This document shows, one piece after another, positions 43,251 through 63,288 of a stretch of 64,000 bases of DNA. Source of the DNA: Plantibacter flavus. Lineage in GTDB: Bacteria; Actinomycetota; Actinomycetes; Actinomycetales; Microbacteriaceae. The position numbers and the translations under genes are program-made. The stretch spans positions 930,001 through 994,000 of the forward strand of contig NZ_CP019402.1 in NCBI RefSeq assembly GCF_002024505.1. Direction: 5' to 3'. Below the pieces are notes generated by a model that did not search any database, was not told the DNA's origin, and saw only the letters and a program-made list of their open reading frames with translations. Positions within the stretch are counted from its first letter, which is position 1. Every line of letters begins with the position of its first letter.

Positions 43251-44665
43251 GCTGCGTCCCCCCGACGGTGCTCGGACGCGAGGGTCGCCTGGTGTCGTCC
43301 CGCACCAGGGCCGTCGGTGCCGACCTTCAGGATGAGGGCGAGCCCCAGGAACAGGGTGAGCGTCGGGACGGAACTGTAGAGCGGACTGAAGAAGAGGTCC
43401 CAACAGGTCCGCACCCCCAGGAAGATGACGACCGCGCTCGCGTTGCGCCGTGCGATGCCGTGCCCGAGGCCGTAGATGGTGAGCCAGGCGATCAGCACGG
43501 CCAGGGCGAGCCCGATGAGGCCGAAGCGGACCCAGAGGTCGCCGATGGTGGAGTGGACCTCGAACCCGGTGCCGAACATGAAGCGTTCGACGTAGCCGTT
43601 GTTCGGGTCGTACCCGATGGAGGCCATACCGGTCTTGGCGACCAGCACGTCGCTCAGAGAGGCGTAGGTGCCGCTCCCGTACCCCGCCGGCTGATGGAGG
43701 AAGAGGGCGGCGGTCGCGGCGAGCTCCGGCCGTCCGCCGAGCAGGATGGATCCCGACTGATCGAGTTGCGCGACGGTGCGACTCTGGGTCTCCGCGCCGA
43801 ACACCCCGTCGAGGAGCAGGGCCTGGCCGACGTTGAACACGAACGCCGCGGCGATGCCGATCCCGATGATGACCCGTGCGGTCGACGCCTTGCGGCTCCT
43901 GCCGGCGGAGCGCATCTGCCAGGCGACGAGGCAGAGGGTCAGGAGCAGGATCGCGAACAGCGACCGCGAGTCGTTGAGGATCGACACGGCTGCGAGGGCG
44001 GCGACGACGGCGACCTCGATCCAGCGGCGGCGGGTCGCCAGGGCCAGTCCGAGCAGGATCACGGTCAGCGGGACCGAGTACTGGAACTTCCACACGTTCG
44101 TCATGTACGCGGTACCGCCCGGGCCGGCGATGACGGCTCGGACGAGCAGTCCGAGGCCGTAGAACACGATGATGTGCGACGGCGTCAAGACCGTCCGGGT
44201 CCAGACGATGCACGCGACCGACACGAGTGGGCCGAGGAGCACGATGGTCGCACCGATGGCGACGCCCTGGCCGGTCTGGTGGTCGTCGGCCATCGCAGCC
44301 GTGAGCCAGAGCCCCGACACCGCTGCAGCGACCCCGCCGAGGAGCAGGGGCACTCCGCCACGGTACCTCCGGAGCTCGCCCATCCAGAGGGGGAGCAGGA
44401 TCAGGGCCACGCCGAAGCCCACGGTGAAGCCCTGGAAGACCTGGAGGCGAGCGCCGAGGAGCACGAGGAACACGATCGCGATGATGCGGTGGACCGTCGC
44501 CATGGTCGGATCGGCCGGCGGTCGCAGGACCGGGAGCGGTTCGAGCCGCTCGTCCGCGGGTGCTCCGACGGTGCCCCGCGATACGCGCCGCGGGCGGGCC
44601 GCACGCCACCGCGGGCTTGCGGTCCCCGTCGGGCCCGCCGTCGTCTTCGGGTCAGCGAGCGACAT
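43247..44665 (-). CDS. Wzy-like O-antigen/exopolysaccharide polymerase
   Basis: 472 residues. After about 50 polar residues there are at least ten hydrophobic helices, with a larger extracytoplasmic loop between the later ones containing NNGYVERFMFGTGFEVHSTIGDLWVRFG. That is the position and character of the Wzy_C/O-antigen ligase loop. STIGDLW-type motifs occur in this family. Wzy links lipid-bound repeat units into polymer on the outer face of the membrane. The N-terminus overlaps wzx by 14 bp; a second ATG at residue 55 is an alternative start. Assignment rests on topology and position since these proteins diverge strongly. Confidence 0.82.
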   Translation of the reverse strand: MSLADPKTTAGPTGTASPRWRAARPRRVSRGTVGAPADERLEPLPVLRPPADPTMATVHRIIAIVFLVLLGARLQVFQGFTVGFGVALILLPLWMGELRRYRGGVPLLLGGVAAAVSGLWLTAAMADDHQTGQGVAIGATIVLLGPLVSVACIVWTRTVLTPSHIIVFYGLGLLVRAVIAGPGGTAYMTNVWKFQYSVPLTVILLGLALATRRRWIEVAVVAALAAVSILNDSRSLFAILLLTLCLVAWQMRSAGRSRKASTARVIIGIGIAAAFVFNVGQALLLDGVFGAETQSRTVAQLDQSGSILLGGRPELAATAALFLHQPAGYGSGTYASLSDVLVAKTGMASIGYDPNNGYVERFMFGTGFEVHSTIGDLWVRFGLIGLALAVLIAWLTIYGLGHGIARRNASAVVIFLGVRTCWDLFFSPLYSSVPTLTLFLGLALILKVGTDGPGAGRHQATLASEHRRGDAA

Positions 44666-46001
44666 CGACGGGCTCCGCTTCCGTCGCGAGCCGGCGTCGC
44701 TTCGCGAGGTCGCGCTGGACGTACCAGAGGTTCGGGACGACCTGGCAGATCGCGACCGCGACCGCGGATCCGACGATGGGACCTGCGGCCCCGAGGACGG
44801 GGATGAGCACCCAGGAGAGGCCGAGGTTGAGCGGCACCATGAACAGGATGGGGAGGACCTGGAACTGGAGCCCCTTCGCGTCCGTCATGTACATCCCGAC
44901 CGGGTACTTCGCGGCCTGGAGGGCGACGAACACGACGTAGGAGACGAGGATCGGCCAACCGAGGGTGATCTCGCCGTCGGAGACGAACCCGGCGATCCAC
45001 GGGGAGATCGCCGCGAGGACGACCGCGAGGGCGAGCCCGCCGCCGAGGAACCACAGCGTCGGGACGAGCGGCGACTCGACGCGCTTCGCGGACCGCGCCT
45101 TGGCATAGATCGGCCACAGGGCCAGCCCGGCCGCACCGATCGTCTGGATGACGAGCCCGAACAGCTGGGTCGCGAGGTTGTACTGGGCGAGTTCCGGTCC
45201 GGTCGTCAGGTGGCTGAGCAGCAAGCGGTCGGTCTGCATGGCGATGGGCAAGGCGATCATCTGGACGACCATCGGCCAGGCGAGGGCGAACGCGGGGACG
45301 CCCGGAGCGCTGCGGAGCTTGGGCACCTCCTTCATCGCCTGCCAGACCTGCGGCCTGATCGAGCGCGCGGCGAGCACCAGGCAGACGGCGGCGACGACGC
45401 CGCTCGCCGCGTAGGAGAGGACGGCGACGAAGGAGCCGCCGTCGAACCCGGTGACGACGAAGAGCCACACGCCGAGGAAGATCGCCGGAGCGGCGATCGC
45501 CTGCGTCGCGACCTGGGTGCTCGTCTTGCCGACTCCGATGAGGATGCGTTGACCGACGGTCATCGGCAGGACGAGTCCGAACGTCGCGAGGCAGAGGAAC
45601 GCCGCGACGCTGCCGCCGTCGGGTGCGAGGCCGTTGCCGAGGATCGCCGGCCACAGGTCGAGGACGGTGATGAGGATGGCGACGAGCATGATGACCGCGC
45701 CCGACACGGTGAGGATCCGGAACGCCGTCACGATCGAACGCCGCACCTGCAGGTCGCGCTTCGGGTCGTCGGATCCGGCGATGGCGTTGATGACGACGGC
45801 GGCGATGCCGAGGTCGGCGAACGGCAGCAGGGCCGGCAGGCTCGTCAGCAGCCCGTACTGGGCGTAGGCGCCGGAGCCGAAGTGTTCGATGATCATCCGG
45901 CTCGTGAAGATGCCGAGGACGCCGGAGAGCCCCATCACGAAGATCTTCGCGACGGCCGTCTGGCTGACGGAGGCCCAGATGCCGCCCCTGCCGCGCGCCA
46001 T
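44652..46001 (-). CDS. Wzx-like polysaccharide flippase (MOP superfamily)
   Basis: 449 residues with 12-14 helices. The start SVSQTAVAKIFVMGLSGVLGIFTSRMIIEHFG is typical of polysaccharide biosynthesis flippases. Further marks are FADLGIAAVVINAIA, TDRLLLSHLTTGPELAQYNLA and LNLGLSWVLIPVLGAAGPIVGSAV. It would move undecaprenyl-linked repeat units across the membrane for Wzy. It overlaps the upstream GT4 gene by 3 bases and the downstream wzy by 14, so it is fully embedded in the operon. Confidence 0.9.
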   Translation of the reverse strand: MARGRGGIWASVSQTAVAKIFVMGLSGVLGIFTSRMIIEHFGSGAYAQYGLLTSLPALLPFADLGIAAVVINAIAGSDDPKRDLQVRRSIVTAFRILTVSGAVIMLVAILITVLDLWPAILGNGLAPDGGSVAAFLCLATFGLVLPMTVGQRILIGVGKTSTQVATQAIAAPAIFLGVWLFVVTGFDGGSFVAVLSYAASGVVAAVCLVLAARSIRPQVWQAMKEVPKLRSAPGVPAFALAWPMVVQMIALPIAMQTDRLLLSHLTTGPELAQYNLATQLFGLVIQTIGAAGLALWPIYAKARSAKRVESPLVPTLWFLGGGLALAVVLAAISPWIAGFVSDGEITLGWPILVSYVVFVALQAAKYPVGMYMTDAKGLQFQVLPILFMVPLNLGLSWVLIPVLGAAGPIVGSAVAVAICQVVPNLWYVQRDLAKRRRLATEAEPVDVAR

Positions 46002-47104
46002 CAGCGATCACCGCCGGCGTCACGGAACAGCCAGGTGTCGGCGGCGAGACGGCCGTCACGGGCGGGAAGGTCCGCGAGCACGTTCTCCGGGGTCCGGGTG
46101 CTGGCGAGCGTCGCGAGCAGGGCTTCGGCGAGCGCCACCGCGTCGTCCCCCGGCTCGATGACCCGGTGGCCGTGCTCGTCCAGCCAGCCCGCGACGCCGG
46201 TCTCGGTCGTGGTCACCACGAGGCAGCCGGCGGCGAGGCCCTCGACGATCGGCAGGCCGACCTGCTCGCGCCAGTCCGGACGTGGCTGAGAGGGCAGGAC
46301 GAGTGTGCGGCTCGCGGCGAGGGTGTCGAAGATCACGGAGCGTGCCGGGTCGCGGTGGAAGGTGACGGACGGGTGGCGGTCGCTGAGCGCGGTCGCTGCG
46401 GGCTCGAGCTCGCCGGAGCCGAGGATGACGAGGGAGGCGCGCGGTTCGCGCTGCAGGACGGTCGACCAGGCTTCGACGAGCAGGGGGAAGCCCTTCCGCT
46501 CGACGAGGGCTCCGAGGAAGACGACCTGCAGGGGGTTCCGGACGATGTCGCTCCGCTCGGGCATGGGCGCGGGCAGGGCTTCGATGACCGTGGACTCGAG
46601 GTCGCGTCGCGCCGGCAGGACCCGGGCGTGCAGATCGCGGGCACCGGTCGTCCCGTAGACGATCCGGTCGAGACGACGCCACACCCGACCGGCGGCCCAA
46701 CGCTGCGCCCGGAGTTTGACGCGCGATCGGAGGCGGGCGGGGCGGGCGGACATCGGGTCGAGGTTCTCGATGGCGTACGTCACCACGAGCGGCCGTGTTC
46801 CACGGAGGCGTGCGCGCAGGTCGAGGGCGATCAGGGTGCTCAGGGTGGCGATGGCGGTGGACAGTTGGAGCGGCTCGTTGACCTCGAGCGCGGTCACGCC
46901 GGAGCGTATGAGCAGCCGTGCTGCGGCCATCGGCTCGGCCTGGACGAGCTCGACGCCCGGGGCGACGCTCGGGTCGAAGTCGTAGCGGCGGCGACGGTAG
47001 ACGATGCTCGCAGGCGCCAGTTCACGGGCCCGTTCGAGGTGCGCGGTGCGGACGACCTCGTACAGCCTGGCGCGGCGGTGGCTCAGGCGAGCGGGTGTTG
47101 GCAT
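46001..47104 (-). CDS. glycosyltransferase family 4 (GT-B)
   Basis: 367 residues. The acceptor domain is followed by the C-terminal GT4 core: VVFLGALVERKGFPLLVEAWS and SLVILGSGELE, then the EX7E-like donor site QVGLPIVEGLAAGCLVVTTTETG. It sits 40 bp after the BY-kinase gene and overlaps wzx. It should transfer a sugar from a nucleotide donor during repeat-unit assembly. The N-terminal half is less conserved, and the sugar is unknown. Confidence 0.88.
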   Translation of the reverse strand: MPTPARLSHRRARLYEVVRTAHLERARELAPASIVYRRRRYDFDPSVAPGVELVQAEPMAAARLLIRSGVTALEVNEPLQLSTAIATLSTLIALDLRARLRGTRPLVVTYAIENLDPMSARPARLRSRVKLRAQRWAAGRVWRRLDRIVYGTTGARDLHARVLPARRDLESTVIEALPAPMPERSDIVRNPLQVVFLGALVERKGFPLLVEAWSTVLQREPRASLVILGSGELEPAATALSDRHPSVTFHRDPARSVIFDTLAASRTLVLPSQPRPDWREQVGLPIVEGLAAGCLVVTTTETGVAGWLDEHGHRVIEPGDDAVALAEALLATLASTRTPENVLADLPARDGRLAADTWLFRDAGGDR

Positions 47105-47143
47105 CGTTCCTCGGTCCCTTCGGGCGCGTCGTCGGGCAGCGGC

Positions 47144-48586
47144 TCAGCGGCCGGCCATGGACGGCGTGCGCGCCGCGTCGTTCGCGGCGGGGGTGGCCCC
47201 TCCCGCAGCGGGTGGGCCGAGTGGGACGGTGTCCGGAGCCGAGCGGTACGAGTTGTAGCGGTAGTAGGAACTCGTCTCGTCCTGCTTGAGGCCGTTGAGG
47301 ACCAGCCCGATCGTGCGGGCGTTCGCGCCGTCGAGGGTCTCGAGCGCGCGGTGGAGCTGCTGGCGGCGGGTCGACTTGTAGCGGGAGACGACGATCGCAC
47401 CGTCGGTCATGTGCGTGAGCCAGAGCGGGTCGGTGACCGGGATGATCGGCGCGGTGTCGATGATGACGAAGTCGTACGACTCCTTGGCGCGGTCCACCAG
47501 CTGGCGCATCGCGTCGGAGGCGAGGAGCTGGCTCGGGTTCGGCGGCACCCCGCCGGAGGCGAGGACGTCGAGGTTGCCGCGACCCCAGGACTGCACGGCC
47601 TCGTCGAGGGTGATGTCGCCCACGAGGACACTGGTCAAGCCGACCTCGCCTTCGATCTGGGTGTAGCCGGCGATCGAGGGGCGGCGGAGGTCCGCGTCGA
47701 TGAGGAGGACGCGCGGCGCGCGTTCGGTCATCGCGAGGGCGAGACCGAGCGCGACGGTGCTCTTGCCCTCACCGGGGAGTGCTGAGGTGACGATGACGGA
47801 GGTGATCCGTTCGTCGACGTCGGCGAAACTGAGGTTCGTCGCGAGGCTCCGGAAGCCCTCGGCGATCATGCCGTTCGGGTTCCGCATCATGGCCTGCGTC
47901 GGCAGCTCGCCCTTCCGTGTGCGGGAGACCGTGGTGAGGACGGGGGTGTCGGAGACCTGCTGCAGCTCGCGCAGCGACCGGATCCTCGTGTCGAGGAGCT
48001 CCCGGCCGAACGCGTACAGGACGCCGATGAGCAGGCCGCCGAGTCCGCCTCCGGCGACGAGGAGTTTGGTGTTGGGCGCGAAGGCGAAGATGGGGAGCTT
48101 GGCCGGCGCGATGATCGTGAGCTGGACGGCCGGGCGGTCCTGATCGTCCCTCGGGGAGATGCCGTCCACCGCGGAGGACAGGGAGTTCGCCACGGCGGCG
48201 GCGATGCTCTGCGCCTGGTCGGCGCTCGTCGACACTGCGGAGATCTCGACGATCACCGTGTTGAGGGGCGCGTCGGCGGTGACCGCTTCCGCGAGGTCCT
48301 GGACGCTCATGTCGAGACCGAGCTCGTTGATGACCGGCTCGAGCACGATCGGGGAGGACGCGAGGACGGCGTAGGACTGCACGAGGTTCTGCACGTAGGT
48401 GGATCCCTGGACCAGTTCGGTCGTGGAGTTGCCGGCCTCGGTGGTCACGAACACGCTCGTCGTGGAACGGTACTGCGGTGCCATCGTCTGTGCGAAGACG
48501 TAGGCTCCGGTCGCGCCGACGAGTGCGAGCACCACGATGACGATCCACTGCTTGCGCAGCGTTGCGATGTAGTCGCCGAGATCCAT
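47144..48586 (-). CDS. polysaccharide chain-length/BY-type tyrosine autokinase (Wzz-Wzc/CpsCD fusion)
   Basis: 480 residues. The N-terminal Wzz domain has two membrane helices (residues about 15-35 and 175-195) around an outer loop. The C-terminal BY-kinase carries Walker A SALPGEGKST, Walker A' VLLIDADLRRP and Walker B FVIIDTAP. The C-terminus has a Tyr cluster (SSYYRYNSYRS), the usual autophosphorylation site, then a Pro/Ala-rich end. BY-kinases cycle between phosphorylated and dephosphorylated states to set polymer length, with the opposing phosphatase plausibly encoded divergently at 48838. It is the first gene of the operon. CCCC-N7-GGGG sites lie upstream. Confidence 0.93.
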   Translation of the reverse strand: MDLGDYIATLRKQWIVIVVLALVGATGAYVFAQTMAPQYRSTTSVFVTTEAGNSTTELVQGSTYVQNLVQSYAVLASSPIVLEPVINELGLDMSVQDLAEAVTADAPLNTVIVEISAVSTSADQAQSIAAAVANSLSSAVDGISPRDDQDRPAVQLTIIAPAKLPIFAFAPNTKLLVAGGGLGGLLIGVLYAFGRELLDTRIRSLRELQQVSDTPVLTTVSRTRKGELPTQAMMRNPNGMIAEGFRSLATNLSFADVDERITSVIVTSALPGEGKSTVALGLALAMTERAPRVLLIDADLRRPSIAGYTQIEGEVGLTSVLVGDITLDEAVQSWGRGNLDVLASGGVPPNPSQLLASDAMRQLVDRAKESYDFVIIDTAPIIPVTDPLWLTHMTDGAIVVSRYKSTRRQQLHRALETLDGANARTIGLVLNGLKQDETSSYYRYNSYRSAPDTVPLGPPAAGGATPAANDAARTPSMAGR

Positions 48587-48660
48587 CTGACTCCCCCTGG
48601 TTTGTTGACACCCAACACCTCAGCGTACCGACGATTTCCCGGTTTATCAGGGGAAAGACG

Positions 48661-48676
48661 CCCCCACTCAGGGGGG
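48661..48676. promoter_or_regulatory. CCCC-N7-GGGG palindrome, site B1
   Basis: CCCCCACTCAGGGGGG sits 75-90 bp upstream of the BY-kinase start in the 251-bp divergent region. A degenerate copy (CCCCC-N7-GGG) follows at 48694-48708. Confidence 0.55.
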
Positions 48677-48727
48677 TACGGGCCGTTTGATGACCCCCAG
48701 TCCGAGGGTGTCAACCCCCGCGGATGA

Positions 48728-48743
48728 CCCCCGTTCGACGGGG
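48728..48743. promoter_or_regulatory. CCCC-N7-GGGG palindrome, site B3
   Basis: CCCCC-GTTCGAC-GGGG lies about 95-110 bp upstream of the phosphatase ATG. Half-sites (TGACCCCC, GTCAAGGGGG) flank it. A TACGAT -10 at 48793-48798 has the last GGGGG run (48774-48778) near its -35 position. Confidence 0.55.
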
Positions 48744-48837
48744 TTCAGGGCGGTCTCCTTCGGTGTCGGTCAAGGGGGTGTGGCGCTCACGCTACGATTG
48801 TCGGAATTCTTCCCCCGAGCGAAAACCGAAGGACGTC

Positions 48838-49473
48838 ATGGCGCGGATCCTCGTAGTGTGCAGTGCCAACGTCTGTCGCTCCCCGCTCGCGGAACAGCTC
48901 CTCCAAGCCCGGTTCTCGACCATTCCCGGCTTCGACCGCCTCGTCTGCTCGAGCGCCGGCATCGAGGTCAGTCGCGGGCACGAGATGTGCGCTGACGCGG
49001 CCGCGATCCTCGGCCTGCCGGCGGAGGGGCCGAAGGCGTCAGCTCATCGTGCACGCCGCGTCACCAAGTCGATGATCGGTGGTGCGGGGCTCGTGCTGAC
49101 CGCGAGCCGCGCCGAGCGCTCCGCCCTCGCCAAACTCTCTCCCGAGGCCCGTTCAAAGGTCTTCACCCTCCGCGAGGCGGCAGCGCTCGCCGAAGCGCCC
49201 GACCAGGCGATCGCCACCTGGCGACCCGGTGCCGGCACGACGGCCGATCAGCGTCTGTCCGACCTGGCGGCCCTGCTCAACGCCCGTCGAGGTCTCGCTC
49301 CTGCTCCGAAGCCGGAGCGCACCGGGCTGTTCGCGCGACTCGGGAGCGACGTCGACCCGCTCGACATCGCCGACGGACACAACCTCGGCAAGCGGGCGCA
49401 CCGGGCGACCCTGCGGTCCGTCCAGCGCTCGGTCGAGCGGTTCGGCGCCGCTGTGGAAGCCCTCGCGCGGTAG
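48838..49473 (+). CDS. low-molecular-weight protein tyrosine phosphatase
   Basis: 211 residues from ATG 48838 with AAGGA upstream. The P-loop VCSANVCRSPLAEQL supplies the nucleophile Cys and the phosphate-binding Arg of the CX5RS motif. The general acid Asp is probably in DVDPLDIADGH. The middle is longer than in the usual 155-residue family members because of an Ala/Arg-rich insert around 120-160. It is divergent from the BY-kinase gene and probably dephosphorylates its Tyr cluster, as in other capsule and exopolysaccharide loci. Confidence 0.92.
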   Translation: MARILVVCSANVCRSPLAEQLLQARFSTIPGFDRLVCSSAGIEVSRGHEMCADAAAILGLPAEGPKASAHRARRVTKSMIGGAGLVLTASRAERSALAKLSPEARSKVFTLREAAALAEAPDQAIATWRPGAGTTADQRLSDLAALLNARRGLAPAPKPERTGLFARLGSDVDPLDIADGHNLGKRAHRATLRSVQRSVERFGAAVEALAR

Positions 49474-49493
49474 CGGTTCGAGGGTCATCACTA

Positions 49494-49509
49494 CCCCTGT
49501 CTTTGGGGG
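49494..49509. promoter_or_regulatory. CCCC-N7-GGGG palindrome, site C
   Basis: ACCCC-TGTCTTT-GGGGGT lies between the phosphatase stop and the next glycosyltransferase, about 126-141 bp before ATG 49635. Its centre resembles that of site D2 (CTTTGGGGG). Confidence 0.55.
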
Positions 49510-49634
49510 TACGCAGGGCGCGATTTTCCCGTTTTCCGACGAATGTTGGGCGGTAGGCTCTTCAGCATTCCAGCCGAGACACGCTCCGTGTCCGCGTCGC
49601 CCGAACGGCGCCTGGAGCGATGAGGAGAAGCTCG

Positions 49635-50786
49635 ATGGGGGACAACGCTGCACGGCGTCAGGGGCAGCCGACGGTTCGGATCCTCGGCACGCACGGGATC
49701 CCGGCGGCCTACGGAGGGTTCGAGACGGCAGCCGAGAACATCGCCGTCTTCCTCCGGGATCAGGGCTGGCGCGTCATCGTGTACTGCCAGTCCGACGGCG
49801 ACGGGCCGATCGTCGAGGACGACTGGCGCGGCATCGAACGCGTGACGATCCCCGTCGGTCCGGACGGGTGGAAGGGCACCTCGCTGTTCGACCTGAAGTC
49901 GATCGGACACGCCTCGCGGTTCGACGACGTCTGCCTCACGTTCGGCTACAACACCGCCGTCTTCAACGTCCTGCAGCGTCTCAAAGGCATCCCGAACGTC
50001 ATCAACATGGACGGCATCGAATGGTCACGGGCGCGCTGGGGGTTCATGAAGCAGGCGATCCTCTACGTGAACGAACGCATCGCGTGCTGGGTCGGGAACA
50101 CGCTCATCGCCGACCACCCCGAGATCGAGACCTACCTCGCGAAGAAGGCGAAGCGGTCGAAGCTCACGACGATCACCTACGGCGCACACCGTGTCGACTC
50201 GGCACCCGTCGCACCGCTGACGGCCCACGGGCTGACGCCGGGGGAGTACCTGACGCTGATCTGCCGCCCGATCCCGGAGAACACGATCCTGGAGCTCGTG
50301 CAGGCGTTCTCGGCCGAACGGCGTGGCGTCACCCTCGCCGTCTTCGGCACCTACACCCCGGAGACGGACCCGTACCACCGCGCCGTCGTCGACGCCGCGA
50401 GCGACGAGGTCGCGTTCGTCGGGTCGGTCTACGACCCCGACGAGCTCGCCGCCCTCCGATTCCACGCGCTCGGCTACCTCCACGGGCACACCGTGGGCGG
50501 CACGAACCCCTCGCTCGTCGAGGCGATGGCCGCCGGGAACGCCGTGATCGCCCACGACAACCCGTACAACCGATGGGTCGCCGGCGACGGCGCCCTCTAC
50601 TTCACCACCGCCCGTGACGCCGCCGCACGGATCGGCGAGCTGCTCCAGAACCCCGCCCGCCGTGCCGCCCTGTCCTCCGCCGCGTCCGCGCGGCACGCCG
50701 AGGAGTTCACCTGGGAGCACGTCGCCGGCCAATACGAAACCGTCCTGCAGACCTATCTTGGAGGTGCACGTGTCGCACGTGTCTGA
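49635..50786 (+). CDS. glycosyltransferase family 4 with DUF1972 N-terminus
   Basis: 383 residues from ATG 49635, which has GAGGAG 7 nt upstream; ATG 49620 is less likely. VRILGTHGIPAAYGGFETAAENIA is diagnostic of the DUF1972 rhamnosyltransferase-like subfamily, followed by LTFGYNTAVFN and NMDGIEWSRARWG. In the donor domain, GHTVGGTNPSLVEAMAAGNAVIAHDN carries the GT4 signature. It should add a deoxyhexose or similar sugar in the polysaccharide pathway. The downstream dehydrogenase start overlaps its end by 17 bp, so translation is coupled. Confidence 0.9.
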   Translation: MGDNAARRQGQPTVRILGTHGIPAAYGGFETAAENIAVFLRDQGWRVIVYCQSDGDGPIVEDDWRGIERVTIPVGPDGWKGTSLFDLKSIGHASRFDDVCLTFGYNTAVFNVLQRLKGIPNVINMDGIEWSRARWGFMKQAILYVNERIACWVGNTLIADHPEIETYLAKKAKRSKLTTITYGAHRVDSAPVAPLTAHGLTPGEYLTLICRPIPENTILELVQAFSAERRGVTLAVFGTYTPETDPYHRAVVDAASDEVAFVGSVYDPDELAALRFHALGYLHGHTVGGTNPSLVEAMAAGNAVIAHDNPYNRWVAGDGALYFTTARDAAARIGELLQNPARRAALSSAASARHAEEFTWEHVAGQYETVLQTYLGGARVARV

Positions 50787-51921
50787 AACGAACGCCCCGG
50801 CCGCGGAAGTGCCCATCGAGACGGCCCGCGTGCGGGTCGGTGTGATCGGGCTCGGCAAGATGGGCCTCTCCCACCTCGCCATGATCAAGGCCCACCCGTG
50901 GGTGAGCGTCGATGCGGTCGTCGACTCGACCGGCTACATCCTCGACGTCCTCGGCAAGTACACCGGCCTCAAGACCTTCACCTCGGTGGATGAGATGCTG
51001 GCCGCGGTCGAGCTCGACGCGGTCATCATCGCGACCCCGACGAAGTTCCACGCACCCATGGTGAAGTCGGTGCTCGAGCGTGGTCTCCACATCTTCTGCG
51101 AGAAGCCGCTCAGCCTGAGCGCGGCCGACTCCGACGAGCTCGCGGCACTCGCCGAGCGTCGCGGCGTCGTGACCCAGGTCGGGTACCACAACCGCTTCGT
51201 GGGTGCGTTCCGCGAGGTCAAGCGTCTGCTCGACCTCGGTGCCATCGGTCGCGTCACGCACATCCAGGCGGAGGCCTACGGTCCCGTCGTGTTGAAGTCG
51301 CGCGGCTCGACCTGGCGGAGCAACCGCAACGAGGGCGGTGGCTGCCTCTACGACTACGCCGCCCACCCCGTCGACCTCCTCACCTGGTACGCCGGCGAGC
51401 CGATCGGCGTCGGGGGCACGGTCCTCGGCAGCGTGTTCTCCGAGCACACCGAGGACGAGGTCTTCTCGACCCTCTTCTTCGACGCCGGCGTCAGCGCGCA
51501 GCTCTCCGTCAACTGGTCTGACGAGTCCTACCGCAAGATGACCACGCAGATCACCATCACCGGGACCGCCGGTCGGATCCACGCCGACCGCCAGGAATGC
51601 CAGGTCTACCTGCGCGACACCGCGCCCGAGATCGAGGGCTACGAGACCGGCTGGAACGTCAAGTACACCACCGAGCTCACCGACGAGGTCTGGTACTACC
51701 TGCGGGGCGAGGAGTACAGCGCACAGCTGGACCACTTCGTCACCCGGGTCGTCGAGGGCGCCGTGCTGGGGACGAACTCCTTCACCAGCGCGGCCGCCAC
51801 CGACCACGTCCTCGAACTCCTCACCATCGACGCGGCGGCAGGCCCGTCCACCCGAGCCGCGACGGCCGCACCCGCTCCCGTCGCGAAGAAGAAAGGCCTC
51901 CTCCCATGGCGACGAGCGTAG
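50770..51921 (+). CDS. Gfo/Idh/MocA-family oxidoreductase
   Basis: 383 residues from GTG 50770, which has GGAGG 5 nt upstream. The N-terminal Rossmann fold has the NAD(P) motif VGVIGLGKMGLSHLAMI, followed by the diagnostic HIFCEKPLSL and TQVGYHNRFVGAF. The C-terminal domain contains GGGCLYDYAAHPVDLLTWY with the usual catalytic His-Asp region. A Pro/Ala-rich tail ends in a basic Trp-Arg-Arg segment. Such enzymes oxidise or reduce sugar rings, often nucleotide sugars in polysaccharide loci. It overlaps its upstream and downstream partners, implying that a modified sugar donor or lipid intermediate is made here. Confidence 0.9.
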   Translation: MSHVSETNAPAAEVPIETARVRVGVIGLGKMGLSHLAMIKAHPWVSVDAVVDSTGYILDVLGKYTGLKTFTSVDEMLAAVELDAVIIATPTKFHAPMVKSVLERGLHIFCEKPLSLSAADSDELAALAERRGVVTQVGYHNRFVGAFREVKRLLDLGAIGRVTHIQAEAYGPVVLKSRGSTWRSNRNEGGGCLYDYAAHPVDLLTWYAGEPIGVGGTVLGSVFSEHTEDEVFSTLFFDAGVSAQLSVNWSDESYRKMTTQITITGTAGRIHADRQECQVYLRDTAPEIEGYETGWNVKYTTELTDEVWYYLRGEEYSAQLDHFVTRVVEGAVLGTNSFTSAAATDHVLELLTIDAAAGPSTRAATAAPAPVAKKKGLLPWRRA

Positions 51922-52823
51922 AGACCCAGACCGGCGCGGCCGCGACAGCTGCCCCGAAGCTTCCCCGGCTCCTGTTCGGAGACAACCAGTTCTTCGGCGT
52001 CAACCACATGTCGGAGGAGAAGGCGCGCGCCCAGGCCATGCGCTTCCAGGACACCGGCGCGATCATGGACGTGCTCGACGTCGCGTACGACGAGGGCATC
52101 ACCTCGTTCATGTGCACCACACACGACCGGATCGCCGAGGTCGCGGAGCGGGTACGGCTCGACCCGACGCGGTACGCCGACTTCACGTTCCAACCGTGCA
52201 TGCCGTACGCGCACAAGTACGCGGACGCCGTCACGGAGAACGGCATGCTCGGTGCGCTCAAGCGCTTCCTGCCTGAGGAGGGCCTGATGAACGCCGCCCT
52301 GCGTGGCGGCAAGGCGTTCGCCACGAAGGACGTCGAGGGCATCATCACGCTGCTCATCGACGCCGAGATGGCGATGTTCCGAGGCGTCGAGACGCCGGTG
52401 ATCTGGCTGCAGAACGTCGTCGTCGACCTCCTGCTCGGTCTCGGGTTCAAGGACGCGTTCGCCATCTTCGACCACCACGTGCGCACGAAGTACCGCGCGC
52501 AGCCCGGGTTCATCACGATGAACCTGCCCCTGCTGCTCGACGCCTTGGACGAGGCCGGCCTCGACAACCCGATCGTGTGCTCGAACATCAACAAGATCGG
52601 CTTCCGCATGTCGGGAGGGATCGAGGGCTACCAGCGGGTGCTCGAGGGCCGCCGGTTCCGTGCCGTCGCGATGTCCGTCTACGCGTCCGGTGCGATCCCG
52701 CCGCGCGAGGCGATCGAATGGCTCTCCGAGCAGCCGAACATCGAGTCGATGGTGTTCGGCGCCTCCAGCCGGCAGAACATCCAGAGCACGCGACGCCTGG
52801 TCGACGAGTTCTTCGGGGTGTGA
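51906..52823 (+). CDS. unrecognised TIM-barrel-like protein of the polysaccharide operon
   Basis: 305 residues from ATG 51906, overlapping the dehydrogenase stop by 16 bp. I do not recognise the family with confidence. There are alternating hydrophobic beta/alpha units (LLFGDNQFFGVNH, ITSFMCTTHDRIAEVAERV, DFTFQPCMPYAHKYADAV, NPIVCSNINKIGFRM). The end, IESMVFGASSRQNIQSTRRLV, resembles the last barrel strand and NADP-phosphate loop of aldo/keto reductases. A reductase or aldolase acting with the preceding dehydrogenase is plausible but not shown. There is no signal peptide or membrane helix. Confidence 0.7.
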   Translation: MATSVETQTGAAATAAPKLPRLLFGDNQFFGVNHMSEEKARAQAMRFQDTGAIMDVLDVAYDEGITSFMCTTHDRIAEVAERVRLDPTRYADFTFQPCMPYAHKYADAVTENGMLGALKRFLPEEGLMNAALRGGKAFATKDVEGIITLLIDAEMAMFRGVETPVIWLQNVVVDLLLGLGFKDAFAIFDHHVRTKYRAQPGFITMNLPLLLDALDEAGLDNPIVCSNINKIGFRMSGGIEGYQRVLEGRRFRAVAMSVYASGAIPPREAIEWLSEQPNIESMVFGASSRQNIQSTRRLVDEFFGV

Positions 52824-52838
52824 TCCGGCACGAGTCCG

Positions 52839-52890
52839 GCTGACGCGAGGAACGGCCCCTGGCATGCCAGGGGCCGTTCCTCGTGTCAGC
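52839..52890. terminator. 52-nt near-perfect palindrome, bidirectional terminator
   Basis: The two 26-nt halves (GCTGACGCGAGGAACGGCCC... meeting at GGCATGCC) pair with a single G/T-type mismatch. It lies between the convergent unknown protein and GT4 genes. Confidence 0.9.
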
Positions 52891-52919
52891 CGGTGCGTTG
52901 CCCGTCGGGGACCTCGCCG

Positions 52920-54131
52920 TCAGACGCGGACGCGACGGACGGACTCGATCACCTGGATGATCTCTGATCGATAGCGCTCCGGGGAGAAGTGCTCCTGCGC
53001 CGAGCGGCGGGCCCGGTCGGCGATCCGTGCGCTCCGGTCCGGATCGTCGAGGAGCTCGGCGACCGCTGCGGCCATGGCCTCGGCGTCACCCGCCGGCACG
53101 AGCAGGCCGGTCGCGCCGTCCTCGATGCTCTCCAGGTGACCGAGCGCTGCTGATGCGACGACGGGTCGCAGCGCCAGCTGGGCCTCGACCACGGCATTGC
53201 CGAAGGGTTCCCGGAGCGAGGGGGCGACGACGAGGTGCGCGCGCTCCAGCGCCGGCCAGATCGGCGAGACGTAGCCCGAGAAGGTGACCGCGCCCCGGAG
53301 GTCCGGTCGGTCGGCACGGTCCCGGAGCTGCTGCTCGAACCACTCGTACCCCTCGAACGGCGTACCCGCGATCTCGATCCGCACGTCGCGTCCGGCGCGG
53401 CGTAGGATCCCGACCGCGTCGAGCGCGATGTCGGGCCCCTTCCGCGGGGAGAGCCTGGCCACGATCGCGAGTCGATGCGGTTCGGAACCGATCGGCGCCG
53501 GCAGGGGATCGACATCCGGGCCGGCGACGCCGTTGAAGACGAGCCGGACCTTCCCGGCGAGTCCTGGAGCGGCCGTGGTGGTCGCCTCGACTGCTGCACG
53601 GCTGATGACGATGAGCGCGTCGGCGAGGATCAGGGGCGAGTTCAGGGCGAAGCGGACCAGTCTGCCGTCCGCGGTCTCCGCCTCGTGCACGTGGCAGACG
53701 ACCGGTGTGCGCGTCAGGCGTGCGGCGAGGATCCACCACGGAAGCGTCACGGTGTTGACGTAGACCGCGGTCGGGGCGATCTCCTCGATGACCTTGCGCA
53801 GGAAGCGGACGGATCGCAGACCGTCCATCGCGAGCGAGGCGACGCCGCCCAGCGAGGCGTTGGCCCGACGCAGGACGGGGAAGGGGACGAACCGGACCTC
53901 CGCGCCGCGGCCGAGCAGCCTCGGGACCAGCTTGCCGTCGGCGGGGAGGGCGACGATCACCCGGTACCCGCGCTCGACGAAGGCGGTGATGCTTTCGAGC
54001 ATCTGCAGGTCGGACCCGTAAACGTCACCCGATGGATTCGCGATGAGGACCGTTCGCCCGGCGTCGGTGGCCGAGGTGCCGGCGAGCTCGTGAGCGTCCA
54101 GGGTGGTCTCCGATGCGTCGATGGCGGTCAC
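52920..54131 (-). CDS. glycosyltransferase family 4 (GT-B)
   Basis: 403 residues, starting at GTG 54131. The N-terminal domain reads VLIANPSGDVYGSDLQMLESI with the acceptor-side VVCHVHEAE. The C-terminal donor domain carries RLAIVARLSPRKGPDIALDAV, then SLREPFGNAVVEAQLALRPVV with the EX7E pair. It overlaps the CDP-alcohol phosphotransferase stop (GTGA), so both belong to one operon read from upstream of 54940. Probably extends the lipid-linked glycan. The sugar is unknown. Confidence 0.9.
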   Translation of the reverse strand: MTAIDASETTLDAHELAGTSATDAGRTVLIANPSGDVYGSDLQMLESITAFVERGYRVIVALPADGKLVPRLLGRGAEVRFVPFPVLRRANASLGGVASLAMDGLRSVRFLRKVIEEIAPTAVYVNTVTLPWWILAARLTRTPVVCHVHEAETADGRLVRFALNSPLILADALIVISRAAVEATTTAAPGLAGKVRLVFNGVAGPDVDPLPAPIGSEPHRLAIVARLSPRKGPDIALDAVGILRRAGRDVRIEIAGTPFEGYEWFEQQLRDRADRPDLRGAVTFSGYVSPIWPALERAHLVVAPSLREPFGNAVVEAQLALRPVVASAALGHLESIEDGATGLLVPAGDAEAMAAAVAELLDDPDRSARIADRARRSAQEHFSPERYRSEIIQVIESVRRVRV

Positions 54132-54940
54132 CGGCCGAGTGCGACGGGCTGCCCGCCGGATGCGGTCACGACGGAGCCGAGCCGTTCCATGTCACGGAAC
54201 CACTTGACCGAGGCGAGCAGCAGGTGACCGCCGTTGGCGAGGAACATGAGGGTGTAGGCGGCGAAGAACACCTGCGGGGCACCGAGGAGGACGAAGACCA
54301 GGCAGAGGAAGCCGTAGTCGGTCGGGATGACGAGCAGCGAGCGCAGGACGGTGCTGTGACCGTTCTCCGGAGCCGGATCGGCACCGTAGACCCGCTTGAG
54401 CTGCTCGTTGAGGATGATCGCGAAGAACGCGACGGCCGCCACGACGCAGTAGCCGATGGGGACGAGCAGCAGCGCTGGCGTCGGCAGCTCGAAGAACCGG
54501 AACGCGCTGATGAGGACGGCGAGGTGCAGGGAGGAGATCTTGGTCGCGTCGATGACGTGGTCGAGCCACTCACCGGACGGTGACCCACCGCCGCGGAGTC
54601 GCGCGACCTGGCCGTCGGCCGAGTCGAAGGCGTACCCGATCGCGAGACAGAGCCACACGCCGACACCGAGACCGATGCTCGGGGGCAGGGTCGCGAGCAT
54701 GACGATGCCGCTGAACGTGAAGACCGCGCTGATCACGGTGACCATGTTCGGCGTGAGACCGAGCTGGTACGCCGCCGCGGCGAGGTAGCGACCCGCCTTG
54801 CGGTTGACGTAGATCGAGTACGCCGGAGCGCCTCGCGTCCGCTTCTTCTGTGCACCGGCGAGACGGGCGACGATGTCGGAGTACCGCTCGGCGACGTCGG
54901 GGTCTTCCGTGGGCTGAGTCATGGGGGCAGTTCGGGTCAT
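54128..54940 (-). CDS. CDP-alcohol phosphatidyltransferase family protein
   Basis: 270 residues from ATG 54940, with AAGGA 6 nt upstream; ATG 54922 is a second choice. The family motif D-x2-DG-x2-AR-x8-G-x3-D-x3-D is present in DSADGQVARLRGGG and GEWLDHVID, giving the metal-binding Asp residues. About six membrane helices surround it. Such enzymes move a phospho-alcohol from a CDP-alcohol to an acceptor, or make phospholipids. Within a glycan locus it may add a glycerol- or inositol-type phosphate. The TagD-like gene at 32079 could make its substrate. Not proven. Confidence 0.88.
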   Translation of the reverse strand: MTRTAPMTQPTEDPDVAERYSDIVARLAGAQKKRTRGAPAYSIYVNRKAGRYLAAAAYQLGLTPNMVTVISAVFTFSGIVMLATLPPSIGLGVGVWLCLAIGYAFDSADGQVARLRGGGSPSGEWLDHVIDATKISSLHLAVLISAFRFFELPTPALLLVPIGYCVVAAVAFFAIILNEQLKRVYGADPAPENGHSTVLRSLLVIPTDYGFLCLVFVLLGAPQVFFAAYTLMFLANGGHLLLASVKWFRDMERLGSVVTASGGQPVALGR

Positions 54941-55259
54941 GCCGGTCCTTGTGTTCTCATGTGGGCGCTGCAGGCGATCGCTGATTCGGGTGAGCGGTCG
55001 TGAGCGGTCGGGCGACGAAGGCGCGCCCGGATTCGGGTGTTCCGCGACCGGTCGGGTACCGGGACGCGGGGATCGTGGCGAGGCGCGCACGGTGCCGGAC
55101 GTGATGCGTCGACGACTCGGGTAAGTCGTCGCTGCAGTGCGTCGCGGGCGGGTTCGGGTGTGCGGGTCTTGCCAGTGAGCAGCTGTGCGATCGAGCCGTT
55201 TTCGGGTGACTCGCCGTGCGACTGCGGGCGGTGATGGTGACGACTGTATCGAAGTGTTG

Positions 55260-55275
55260 CCCCCTCTGGAAGGGG
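55260..55275. promoter_or_regulatory. CCCC-N7-GGGG palindrome, site D1
   Basis: CCCCC-TCTGGAA-GGGG; the spacing is exactly 7 between C and G runs. It is centred about 39 bp from site D2. Confidence 0.55.
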
Positions 55276-55298
55276 ATTTGTCCTCTTTTCGCAGGACA

Positions 55299-55314
55299 CC
55301 CCTCGCTTTGGGGG
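55299..55314. promoter_or_regulatory. CCCC-N7-GGGG palindrome, site D2
   Basis: ACCCC-TCGCTTT-GGGGGC; the right half (CTTTGGGGG) is shared with site C. Confidence 0.55.
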
Positions 55315-55337
55315 CATCACCGACAGAAGTCCTGACA

Positions 55338-56882
55338 TCAGTACGCGCCGACCGGTTTGAGCACGACCTTGACGGTCTGCCACATGATCATCAGGTCGCC
55401 CGTGATGGACCAGTTCTCGACGTAGTAGAGGTCCAGGCGGACGCTCTCCTCCCACGTCAGGTCGGAACGTCCGGAGACCTGCCACATGCCCGTGAGGCCC
55501 GGCTTGATGTGCAGACGCCGGTGGACGTCCTTCTCGTACTCGGCGACCTCGCTCGCGAGCGGCGGCCGGGGCCCGACGAGACTCATGTCGCCGGTGAGGA
55601 TGTTCCACAGCTGTGGCAACTCGTCGAGGGAGTACTTGCGCAGGATGCGACCGACGCGGGTGACGCGCGGGTCGTTCCTCATCTTGAAGAGCACGCCGTT
55701 GCCCTCGCTCTGCGCCAGGAGGGCTGGGAGGGCGGCTTCGGCGTCGGTGATCATCGACCGGAACTTGAACATCGTGAACCGCTCACCGTTGCGCCCGACG
55801 CGCTCCTGGCGGAAGAGCACGGGACCCGGGCTGTCGAGCTTGACGGCGAGGGCGATGAGCGCCAGCAGCGGCGAGATGAGCAGCATCCCGAGGCTCGTGA
55901 GGCCGATGTCGAGCGCCCGCTTCATGATGTGGTGACCACCCTCGAACTGTGGGATCTCCACGTGGATGAGCGGTAGCTCCTCCACCGGGCGGAAGTGGAT
56001 GCGCGGCCCGGCCACGTCGGTGAGACGAGCCGCGAGCACCAGTTCGGTCGCCGTGCCCTCGAGGTCCCACCCGAGGCGACGGACGTAGTCGCTGCCGCCG
56101 TCGACGGGGCCGGCGATGATGACCGCGTCGGCGGTGAGGTTCGCGGCGGCCTGGGCGACGCCGTCGATGTGCGCGATGACCGGGACGGAGGTTCCCCGGC
56201 TCGAGAACGGCTCTGCCGTCTCCTGGTCGACCACGGCCGCACCGACGACGGTGTAGCTCATGCTGTGCTGCTTGGCGACCTGTTCGAGGACGTACGCGAC
56301 GTCGTCACGCCGGCCGACGACGACCGTCCGTGCGGTGTACTCGCCGACGCGACGACGGCTGAGCAGCCATCTGCGCCACATCCAGCGGGAAGCGAGGAGC
56401 GCGAGTGTCCCCGCGGGGAGCGCGAGGATGAAGTAGCCCCGGGCGATGTCGATCTTCAGGATCAGGAAGACGATGGCGAGGATGCCGAAGGCGAACGCGC
56501 TGGCGTTGACGACGCGCTTGTACTCGGCGACACCGGAACCGATGATGCGGCTGTCCCGGGTCCTGGTGAAGCCGAGGAAGGCGAGCCAGACGAGCACGAT
56601 GACCCCCGACAGCAGGATGTAGAGCTGCTGGGCCTCGGGGCCGACCGGGTCGTCGCCGAACCGCACGACGAAGGCGGCCGAGACGGCGAAGAGTGCGATG
56701 ACGCTGTCAGTGAGGATGAGCCAGCGACGGTAGCGCTTCGACCACTCGCGCTGCGTCAACGAGGTGACCGCGGCGGGAGACGACTGGGCGCCGAGCGCTG
56801 CGGTCCGACGGCGGCGCAGGCCGATGGGGGTCGCGATCGGCGCGCTCATCGGGAACGGGCTCTCGTTGAGTTCCGCGCTCAC
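55338..56882 (-). CDS. polyprenyl-phosphate sugar-1-phosphate transferase (initiating glycosyltransferase)
   Basis: 514 residues from GTG 56882; ATG 56849 is the main alternative. Four N-terminal membrane helices (about 50-190) are followed by a CoA-binding-like domain (TARTVVVGRRDDVAYVLEQV). Next is the C-terminal Bac_transf domain: KRALDIGLTSLGMLLISPLL, a re-entrant helix, then SPGPVLFRQERVGRNG, FKFRSM, KYSLDELPQLWNILTGDMSL and VGPRPPL. These match PglC/WbaP-type enzymes that start repeat-unit assembly by moving a sugar-1-phosphate onto undecaprenyl phosphate. It is transcribed from the 485-bp region holding two CCCC-N7-GGGG sites. Confidence 0.93.
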   Translation of the reverse strand: MSAELNESPFPMSAPIATPIGLRRRRTAALGAQSSPAAVTSLTQREWSKRYRRWLILTDSVIALFAVSAAFVVRFGDDPVGPEAQQLYILLSGVIVLVWLAFLGFTRTRDSRIIGSGVAEYKRVVNASAFAFGILAIVFLILKIDIARGYFILALPAGTLALLASRWMWRRWLLSRRRVGEYTARTVVVGRRDDVAYVLEQVAKQHSMSYTVVGAAVVDQETAEPFSSRGTSVPVIAHIDGVAQAAANLTADAVIIAGPVDGGSDYVRRLGWDLEGTATELVLAARLTDVAGPRIHFRPVEELPLIHVEIPQFEGGHHIMKRALDIGLTSLGMLLISPLLALIALAVKLDSPGPVLFRQERVGRNGERFTMFKFRSMITDAEAALPALLAQSEGNGVLFKMRNDPRVTRVGRILRKYSLDELPQLWNILTGDMSLVGPRPPLASEVAEYEKDVHRRLHIKPGLTGMWQVSGRSDLTWEESVRLDLYYVENWSITGDLMIMWQTVKVVLKPVGAY

Positions 56883-57165
56883 GCGTGCACCCGTCCTTCG
56901 GGACGGTGCGCGGGAGTGGCCTCGGTCCGCGCGTGCGGAGCGGCCTGTCGGAAGGACCGACGGCGGTTCGGGTACGTCGTCATGGGGTGTTGTCCGATGG
57001 TGGGGTTCGGGTGCGATTCTGGTGTGCGGTGCACATGGGCGGTTCGGGCCGCCCGCGGAGAACGCGACGTCACTCGTGTACCCACGATCGACCGGTGAAC
57101 CCGGTCGAGATGAGCGTCCCCCTTGGATATCCCTCAACTGTAGAAAGCGGGGGTCATCGGCGGAT

Positions 57166-57182
57166 CCCCCACTCCAGGGGGG
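57166..57182. promoter_or_regulatory. CCCC-N7-GGGG palindrome, site E1
   Basis: CCCCC-ACTCCAG-GGGGG followed by TCA; about 185 bp upstream of marR. Confidence 0.5.
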
Positions 57183-57188
57183 TCACCG

Positions 57189-57204
57189 CCCCCAATGCTG
57201 GGGG
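57189..57204. promoter_or_regulatory. CCCC-N7-GGGG palindrome, site E2
   Basis: CCCC-CAATGCT-GGGGG, then TGTCA; 22 bp centre to centre from E1, roughly two helical turns. Confidence 0.5.
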
Positions 57205-57367
57205 TGTCAGGGGTCTCCGACGCGCGATTCCGTCGTCATCGGCCGAGACGACGACGGACCTCGTCGGTCGCTCTCGCCGCTGCCCGGTGGGGGACAGCAC
57301 GGTCCGCCCACGTCACGCCGGTGATGGGTGGCGGCTCGGCCGCACGCTCAGCGACTACATTGGTGCC

Positions 57368-57853
57368 ATGGATGGAGCGCGCGCGACCGATGGCGCGATC
57401 GCCGACGCCGCCCGCGATCCCATGGCCGATTGGCCGACCGGGCGCCTCCTCTCCACGGCGTCGCGACTGATCGAGCACACCTGGCAGCAGGCCCTCGACG
57501 GCATCGGGGTGACCCACGCCGGGCTCATCGTGCTGCACTTGCTCGACAGCGGGCCCGCCAGTCAGAAGGAGCTCGCCCGTCGGGCCCGCGTGCAGAACCA
57601 GACGATGTCGCGCACGCTCGACCGACTGGAGCGGGCCGGCCACATCGAGCGCATCGCCGCGGTCGACGACCGTCGCCGTCACGTGGTGAGCCGGACGACT
57701 GCGGGTGATGAGGCCTGGCTCGCCGCACACCGGCTGGAGGCCGACGTCTTCCCGGAACTCCCCGACGAGTCGGCGTTGCGGTCCCAGCTGCTCGCGATCA
57801 TCCGTTCGGGCGAGTCCGCCCGTTGGTCGCCCGAGGACGTCGAACCCGCCTGA
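57368..57853 (+). CDS. MarR-family transcriptional regulator
   Basis: 161 residues from ATG 57368. A short acidic N-terminus leads to the dimerisation helix (LLSTASRLIEHTWQQALDGI). The winged helix-turn-helix follows: ASQKELARRARVQNQTMSRTL as recognition region, then LERAGHIERIAAVDDRRRHVVS as the wing. MarR proteins are usually autorepressors released by small ligands. TACATT ends 6 nt before the ATG, so the message is probably leaderless. It neighbours the two-palindrome promoter region of the polysaccharide initiating transferase and is the nearest candidate for binding those sites. Confidence 0.88.
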   Translation: MDGARATDGAIADAARDPMADWPTGRLLSTASRLIEHTWQQALDGIGVTHAGLIVLHLLDSGPASQKELARRARVQNQTMSRTLDRLERAGHIERIAAVDDRRRHVVSRTTAGDEAWLAAHRLEADVFPELPDESALRSQLLAIIRSGESARWSPEDVEPA

Positions 57854-57901: not shown

Positions 57902-58032
57902 CTCGGGGAACCTGCGTGATGCGGGTGTCCGGTCTGGGCTGCCCTTCGGGTGTCCGCTCAGAGGCACACCCAGGCACGGCCGTACCCCGTCCGGGGGGAT
58001 TCGAGCTGGTGCTCCGGGACGAGAGTGGCTAG

Positions 58033-62567: not shown

Positions 62568-62630
62568 GGATCGTTCCGTTCGTTCGACGTGCTGGGAGGT
62601 GTCCAGGGTGCGCCGACTGGTGCCGAACTG

Positions 62631-62655
62631 GCAAGAACCCTTGCTGAAGCGGCAA
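62631..62655. promoter_or_regulatory. operator candidate with GCAA/TTGC half-sites
   Basis: GCAAG-N4-CTTGC (62631-62644) is a perfect inverted repeat, and TTGC-N7-GCAA (62641-62655) overlaps it. The region is between the divergent oxidoreductase and XRE genes, 22-46 nt before the XRE ATG. Confidence 0.5.
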
Positions 62656-62676
62656 TGTGCGAGCGAGAATCGACCC

Positions 62677-63288
62677 ATGGCGCATGCACACGACGAGCAA
62701 CGGTCCATCGACGGTGTCCTGGATGCCGTCGGGCCGAGGCTGCGAGCCATCCGGCAGCATCGCGGCACCACCCTCGCCGCATTGTCGGCGGAGACGGGCA
62801 TCTCGGTCTCCACCCTCTCCCGGCTCGAGTCCGGCCAGCGCCGACCGAACCTCGAGCTGCTCCTCCCGCTCGCCAAGGCGCACCAGGTGCCCCTGGACGA
62901 CCTCGTCGGTGCTCCGCAGACGGGGGACCCCCGCGTCCATCTGAAGCCCGTCCAGCGGCACGGCCAGACGATCGTGCCGCTGACGCGTCGATCGGGCGGC
63001 CTCCACGCGTTCAAGAGCATCATCCACGGCGGCGACGGCCCGCAGACGCCTGAGACGCAGAAGGTCCACGAGGGCTACGAGTGGCTCTATGTCCTCAACG
63101 GCCGGTTGCGGCTCCTCCTCGGCGACCAGGACATCGTGCTCACCGCGGGTGAGGTCGCCGAGTTCGACACCCGCGTCCCGCACTGGTTCGGCCGGGCCGA
63201 GGCCGCAGGGGTGGAGTTCCTCAGCCTGTTCGGCAAGCAGGGTGAACGGATGCACGTCCGCGCGACGTCGACGAGGAGGAGCGCGTGA
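62677..63288 (+). CDS. XRE-family regulator with C-terminal cupin domain
   Basis: 203 residues from ATG 62677. The helix-turn-helix is in LRAIRQHRGTTLAALSAETG, ISVSTLSRLESGQRRPN. The cupin (about 110-190) has EGYEWLYVLNGRLRLLLGD and GEVAEFDTRVPHWFG, with His ligands expected. Such regulators sense small ligands and often control a divergent enzyme gene. GAGAAT ends 6 nt before the ATG, suggesting a leaderless start. It overlaps the next gene (GTGA) and so is coupled to it. Confidence 0.9.
   Translation: MAHAHDEQRSIDGVLDAVGPRLRAIRQHRGTTLAALSAETGISVSTLSRLESGQRRPNLELLLPLAKAHQVPLDDLVGAPQTGDPRVHLKPVQRHGQTIVPLTRRSGGLHAFKSIIHGGDGPQTPETQKVHEGYEWLYVLNGRLRLLLGDQDIVLTAGEVAEFDTRVPHWFGRAEAAGVEFLSLFGKQGERMHVRATSTRRSA

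Follow-up and report, generated by a model that had tools for sequence, protein, structure and literature searches.

In other bacteria, pili, matrix and flagella are controlled by lifestyle regulators such as FleQ and BldD, each of which presides over several surface structures, and the response regulators of the NarL family and the class I and class II activators of the CRP/FNR type bind inverted repeats at positions near -41.5, -61.5 and -72.5. Here we describe a palindrome, CCCC-N7-GGGG, that recurs in a polysaccharide locus of the actinobacterium Plantibacter flavus, within a stretch of 64,000 nucleotides that we call the window (contig NZ_CP019402.1, positions 930,001 to 994,000). Its half-sites and spacing differ from those of the NarL and CRP/FNR proteins, and it is also unlike the sites of FleQ and BldD. 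LysR-type operators, such as those of OxyR and BenM/CatM, at which a tetramer occupies two sites, share with it a 4-7-4 dyad and the placing, ahead of a promoter, of two sites separated by two to three helical turns; the paired sites described here lie 19-26 and 32-38 bp apart. The LysR motif is given in PMC6628147 as T-N11-A within ATAC-N7-GTAT, whereas the arms here are CCCC and GGGG and are invariant at the sites at 57166, 57189 and 55299 throughout the genus, the search pattern itself demanding C and G. For OxyR, PMC3953959 describes four elements spaced 10 bp, lying in four adjacent grooves or as two pairs one helical turn apart. The nearest published dyad of a C-tract and a G-tract that we met is the type 2 operator of CsoR in Streptomyces, given in PMC3902906 as ATATACCCCTNAGGGGTATAT, with 3 bp between the tracts, TAC/GTA flanks that are needed, and copper efflux targets. 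At our sites, in contrast, the tracts are 7 bp apart and flanks and targets differ; on reading the seven sites we found no TAC-N9-GTA, and a CsoR-type operator was rejected.

A pattern scan of the window returned ten overlapping matches to CCCC-N7-GGGG, representing seven distinct sites (Table 1), all between 48661 and 57204; the rest of the window holds no strict site. All seven are intergenic, judged by reading the gene positions, as an earlier sequence-only reading of the window had reported, although two starts had to be shifted, to 48729 (from 48728) and 55261 (from 55260). The half-sites GATGACCCCC and GGGGGTCA that it had described are indeed present around the strict sites. Six of the seven sites belong to arrays, namely 48661/48694/48729, in which the middle member carries one mismatch, 55261/55299 and 57166/57189. 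Shuffling the window 100 times gave 3.4 matches on average, and one shuffle attained the ten observed. Across the genome (4,211,582 bases, one contig), the pattern has 60 overlapping matches against 81 for the reversed control pattern; therefore, the motif is not generally enriched, and its clustering in the locus is the unusual feature. At the rate given by the 50 matches outside the locus, 0.10 sites would be expected in 8.5 kb, and the probability of at least seven is about 2e-11, which excludes the objection, raised with the sequence-only reading, that the motif might be as common elsewhere. The clustering of sites in the polysaccharide locus is real. Among the matches listed outside the locus (40 of up to 50), 36 strict sites were checked with a simple gene caller, and 11 of them are intergenic. 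A site model built from the sequence only gave six matches in the same genome, all weak (best E 0.93), of which four lie in the locus and two, each a single site, lie outside it (896191 and 677174).

The sites were then compared among seven genomes of the genus, the window's own and the corresponding loci from six relatives. Sites 57166, 57189 and 55299 are strict in all seven genomes, and site 55261 in five. In two aligned promoter regions of the seven species, 20/20 and 15/16 arm positions are invariant, as are 11/12 and 11/14 loop positions, against 203/348 and 136/260 of the remaining positions; other conserved blocks are also present in these regions. In 120 kb pooled from the six relatives (20-kb loci), a spacing of 7 forms the peak, with 48 overlapping matches against 16 for the reversed pattern. 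The 26 and 29 matches at spacings 6 and 8 are expected from longer runs of C and G, and a second rise of the reversed pattern, at spacing 13, was read as a by-product of the tandem arrays.

Pairs of sites also recur beyond the genus. A search of 398 genomes of the family for two CCCC-N7-GGGG sites 19-45 bp apart found pairs in 83. There are 22 pairs in the genus against none for the reversed controls, and 95 in the rest of the family against 53 reversed, with 13 genomes holding at least five of either left out, so that chance may account for half or so of the pairs seen across the family. We fetched 40 non-genus loci from among the matches listed, selected by eye because A/T occurs in their loops, and their 41 pair distances fall at 19-26, 32-37 and 43-45 bp, with none in between. 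The unit is mostly a tandem array whose centres are about two, three or four helical turns apart; within one site, the arm centres are 11 bp apart, or one helical turn. In a fuller list of 76 pairs, 49 have at least five A/T in the loops, and 5 of 2000 sets drawn uniformly at random reached the 11-bp periodicity of these.

The arrays also stand in a preferred position relative to a putative -10 hexamer. In 26 promoters (reduced from 33 by dropping near-copies), the start of TANNNT was measured from the last G of the array toward the target. With orientation taken from the annotation, the hexamer starts 23-24 bp beyond the array in seven of the 26, a number reached by none of 2000 shuffles, and the opposite side has one. 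Irrespective of orientation, TANNNT occurs at 22-25 bp on 8 of 86 independent sides, where 2.1 are expected (2 of 2000 shuffles). Further distances between array and hexamer are 12, 33, 38-40 and 50-58 bp. The first six to nine bases past the array, where a -35 element would fall, show no likeness to TTGACA when read by eye. Activators that touch the polymerase are placed near -43; because a hexamer 23-24 bp beyond the array would centre the nearer site at about this position, the geometry suggests an activator.

We consider it probable, on the basis of these sequence comparisons, that CCCC-N7-GGGG is the operator of one dimeric helix-turn-helix transcription factor that acts mainly as an activator and serves surface structures across the family. 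Each palindrome would be bound by one such dimer, several dimers may cooperate on one face of the DNA, and the nearest of them, near -43 or some turns further upstream, would recruit RNA polymerase, with activation as the main effect. What the sequences show directly is the sites with their clustering, conservation and phasing, the genes beside them and the hexamers; that a single protein binds and activates, that dimers cooperate and that every genus uses this one protein is inferred, the mechanism being drawn from the geometry. In the window, the protein would switch on the polysaccharide locus; elsewhere in the family the system may control exopolysaccharide, type IV pili, large adhesin-like secreted proteins and, in a single genome, flagella. 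The proposal of the sequence-only reading that one regulator coordinates several transcription units agrees with the clustering of the sites, their conservation and helical phasing, and their repeated presence beside surface genes elsewhere, but its restriction to the polysaccharide locus was too narrow. A bolder version, in which a single activator conserved through the family reads the phased tandem operators before polysaccharide, type IV pilus, adhesin-like and flagellar genes as the master switch of cell-surface building and its binding replaces the -35 element, is possible but doubtful. With the operator defined and the promoter geometry predicted, the question becomes testable: the site DNA can serve as bait, and targets in other genera can be listed from sequence.

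Several points weigh against this interpretation. When all 104 sides were used irrespective of orientation, eight hexamers lay at 22-25 bp, with 2.6 expected (11 of 2000 shuffles), and when the position was left floating, the hexamer result was reached in 22 of 2000 (86 sides) and 75 of 2000 (104 sides). No -35/-10 promoter pair was found in 48500-57400, which says little because only 0.5 such pairs are expected by chance. Phasing was not seen in the 27 A/T-poor pairs of the 76 (466 of 2000 random sets); the gaps between the distance classes are not empty in that list, with nine pairs at 27.5-31.5 bp and one at 38.5-42.5 bp; and the 38-bp pair of the genus lies slightly beyond the 32-37 class. 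The 40 loci from which these classes were drawn had been chosen by eye, and 18 of them have no evident surface function. Outside the family, an order-level scan gave 77 pairs against 64 for the control, no clear excess. By our own gene calls, the array lies at most 25 bp past a stop codon in 11 family loci (e.g., L118 and L119). The expected conservation at orthologous genes holds for 55261, 55299, 57166 and 57189 but fails for 48661, 48729 and 49494, for which no counterpart with up to one mismatch was found in five corresponding genus regions examined (relative G002 was left out of the kinase/phosphatase comparison because the kinase gene is absent from the stretch fetched); in three of the five, by our own gene calls, the kinase and phosphatase genes overlap, so that there is no intergenic space there. 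Finally, no regulator emerged from the searches for MarR, LAL and LysR proteins described below.

What kind of protein might bind these sites? One special case of the proposed dimeric activator is a LysR-type tetramer on two 4-7-4 sites, like OxyR and BenM, that switches between near and far spacings. The published LysR motif of PMC6628147 has the same 4-7-4 geometry, and the arrangements of OxyR elements in PMC3953959 resemble the two main spacing classes found here. Nevertheless, the T and A of the LysR motif are C and G at these sites, the geometry also fits other dimeric helix-turn-helix families, and none of the 14 matches to the LysR domain (PF00126; 13 over the cut-off) in the genome itself has a strict site in the fetched loci of 3.1-3.2 kb. 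We regard this special case as unlikely. Three of the LysR loci show a site with one mismatch on the one side of each locus that was covered, a count that may be due to chance and is incomplete for genes on the minus strand.

The idea that only the genus cluster is real, and that the family-wide pattern groups unrelated GC-rich operators or chance palindromes through selection, seems to us similarly unlikely. The reversed control, by which about half of the family-wide pairs could be chance (95 against 53), and the hand-picking of loci speak for it, as do some pairs near tRNA, tig, dnaB or metabolic genes. Against it, related targets carry pairs in different genera: the sugar transferase does so in the window and in L130, the giant surface protein in L129 and L165, a beta-helix protein in the genus loci and L166, and type IV pilus genes in four genera.

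The sequence-only reading had put forward the adjacent MarR protein as the regulator, with 57166/57189 as its autoregulated divergent operator, and the pair does separate the start codon of MarR from the sugar transferase gene in all seven genus genomes. However, an ortholog (E<=1e-15) was found in 14 of 37 genomes searched and 13 of the 35 that bear pairs (G301 and G333 being pair-free), and the 1.3 kb upstream of the gene contain no strict site in any of the 14 ortholog loci; in one locus a site lies 1.36 kb upstream, and another has sites beyond the end of the gene. Moreover, a separate promoter for the MarR gene appears to lie about 150 bp beyond the pair, with a hexamer, TACATT, beside the start codon that is the same in 7/7 genus rows of the alignment as read. 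The assignment of the pair to both genes is weaker: the pair seems to serve the sugar transferase, and it is very unlikely that the MarR protein is the regulator. Least likely of all is that the palindromes act in RNA, as hairpins that terminate, attenuate or mark processing, and do not bind protein: a short GC hairpin is possible at each of them, site 4 is one of three terminator-like matches in the region and some arrays closely follow stop codons, as noted above, but terminator-like matches (a hairpin with a T-run) in 48500-57400 number 3 against 2.1 in shuffles, the sites have hexamers downstream of them and keep a helical phase, and in G002 and G005 the base change at 55261 disrupts the pairing with no second change to restore it.

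A LAL-type LuxR protein whose gene follows pairs in two species of a single genus was also considered and rejected, since this gene was found in 9 of 52 genomes (six of them from one genus, plus three distant matches) and in none of the window's genus. These two proteins, with AAA_16 and GerE domains (L123, 6365-9064; L126, 6401-9112), each have a pair upstream and are possibly a target or a local partner. In the literature, no open-access paper was found on a regulator joining sugar coat, pili, surface proteins and flagella in such actinobacteria, and a search with the motif written as a string gave no paper.

The gene identities given by the sequence-only reading agree with the Pfam matches in the locus, which comprise a BY-kinase with a Wzz domain, a tyrosine phosphatase, a DUF1972 glycosyltransferase, an oxidoreductase, a glycosyltransferase, a CDP-alcohol transferase, a bacterial sugar transferase, a MarR protein and an NlpC/P60 protein (Table 1). 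The true start of the sugar transferase is probably downstream of 57137, since four orthologs align only from residue 35-42. The NlpC/P60 gene, which is preceded by a one-mismatch site in the window, is preceded by a strict site in G005 and G002. A degenerate site at 36354-36366, previously reported before the giant surface protein gene, was not recovered when one mismatch was allowed.

Table 1. Sites, putative hexamers and presumed targets in the window, and genes beside site pairs in other genera (L numbers denote fetched loci; non-surface, no evident surface function)
Feature	Position or loci	Strand	Remarks
Site 1, CCCCC...GGGGGG	48661..48676		Upstream of BY-kinase/Wzz gene (start 48586, -); second-best site-model place in genome
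Degenerate site, one mismatch	48694..48708		33 bp from site 1, 35 bp from site 2
Site 2	48729..48743		Between kinase and tyrosine-phosphatase genes; strict pattern match
Site 3	49494..49508		Upstream of DUF1972 glycosyltransferase gene (49620 +); strict pattern match
Site 4, proximal	55261..55275		Upstream of CDP-alcohol transferase gene (55090, -); strict in 5/7 genus genomes
Site 5	55299..55313		38 bp from site 4; invariant in 7/7 genus genomes
Site 6	57166..57181		Upstream of initiating sugar transferase gene (-); strict in 7/7 genus genomes
Site 7	57189..57204		23 bp from site 6; strict in 7/7 genus genomes; best site-model place in genome
Degenerate site, one mismatch	57984..57998		About 100 bp upstream of NlpC/P60 gene (58097 +)
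Putative -10 hexamer TACGCT, kinase gene	48622..48627	-	33 bp from site 1; hexamer match only
Putative -10 hexamer TACAGT	55243..55248	-	12 bp from site 4; invariant in 7/7 genus genomes
Putative -10 hexamer TACAGT	57137..57142	-	23 bp from site 6; invariant in 7/7 genus genomes
Presumed target, BY-kinase with Wzz domain	47144..48586	-	Pfam
Presumed target, low-molecular-weight tyrosine phosphatase	48838..49473	+	Pfam
Presumed target, DUF1972 glycosyltransferase	49620..50786	+	Pfam
Presumed target, CDP-alcohol phosphatidyltransferase family	54128..55090	-	Pfam
Presumed target open reading frame, sugar transferase (Bac_transf)	55338..57137	-	Pfam and ortholog alignment
Neighbour, MarR-family gene	57368..57853	+	Pfam; probably not the regulator
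Type IV pilus, pair at PilB	L117, L118
Type IV pilus, pair between PilC and gene with pilin N-terminal motif or relative	L119, L121, L122, L124, L125
Type IV pilus, pair before gene with pilin N-terminal motif or relative	L134
Exopolysaccharide or glycosyl genes	L115, L116, L120, L127, L130, L175		6/40; L175, Pfam match below cut-off
Large surface or secreted proteins	L129, L165, L166, L167, L169, L172, L179		7/40; L169 and L172 by sequence reading, no Pfam match
Flagellar cluster	L163		1/40; flanked by FlgK and flagellin-like gene and, opposite, by sigma factor, flagellin and FliD
LAL-type LuxR regulators	L123, L126		Among 18 non-surface loci
Abhydrolase genes	L131-L133		Among 18 non-surface loci
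ECF-type sigma factor	L173		Among 18 non-surface loci
Kinase/phosphatase pair	L174		Among 18 non-surface loci

In 22 of the 40 chosen loci, a count made without a control of random genes or of the reversed pattern, the neighbours are pilus, exopolysaccharide, surface or secreted, or flagellar genes; type IV pilus clusters account for eight loci, spanning four genera. The loci without evident surface function include, besides those in Table 1, metabolic genes and arrays near tRNA and tig. Nine further family loci (L250-L258) include a giant secreted protein in two species (L253 and L254, by reading) and a sigma factor in two species (L250 and L251, by Pfam), and several of the nine have no evident surface role. 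A cluster of small open reading frames adjoining the pairs of four loci probably does not represent a gene, and Rfam shows only tRNAs there.

A number of minor observations concern the locus and its counterparts. Between species, the kinase is 26-56% identical and the sugar transferase 87-97% (window 43247-55090 against L070, L073, L076, L078, L080 and L082); because the polysaccharide genes differ strongly between conserved flanks, the content of the locus seems to be exchanged while the operators beside the sugar transferase stay. An inverted repeat, GTCC...GGAC, lies between sites 55261 and 55299 (55280-55297) and is nearly invariant in the genus, and a similar repeat is found in another genus inside the site pair that precedes the gene for a 1961-aa protein (L167). 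The giant secreted protein of the window (36432-42197) has homologs in two other genera (L129 and L165), each with a perfect site pair upstream, and the homolog in L165 contains PKD and laminin-G domains. A further regulator near the locus is an open reading frame with Cro/C1-type helix-turn-helix and cupin domains (62377-63288).

Other observations concern the pairs elsewhere. The gene of a short sigma factor of the sigma-70 family (ECF-type) has a site pair upstream in three genomes (L173, L250 and L251). Arrays near tRNA-Gly/tRNA-Pro and trigger factor genes were seen in L178 and L179, and also in L162 and L180; L178 and L179 have a histidine kinase gene nearby, and in L179 the array stands before a VanY protein that has a cell-wall-binding domain. 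In two genera (L164 and L258), the pair lies between rplI and dnaB, away from surface genes, DnaB of L164 having been identified by Pfam and the rest by reading. In another family of the order, a conserved tandem pair with members 29-30 bp apart stands without evident surface genes beside it (L245, L246 and L247).

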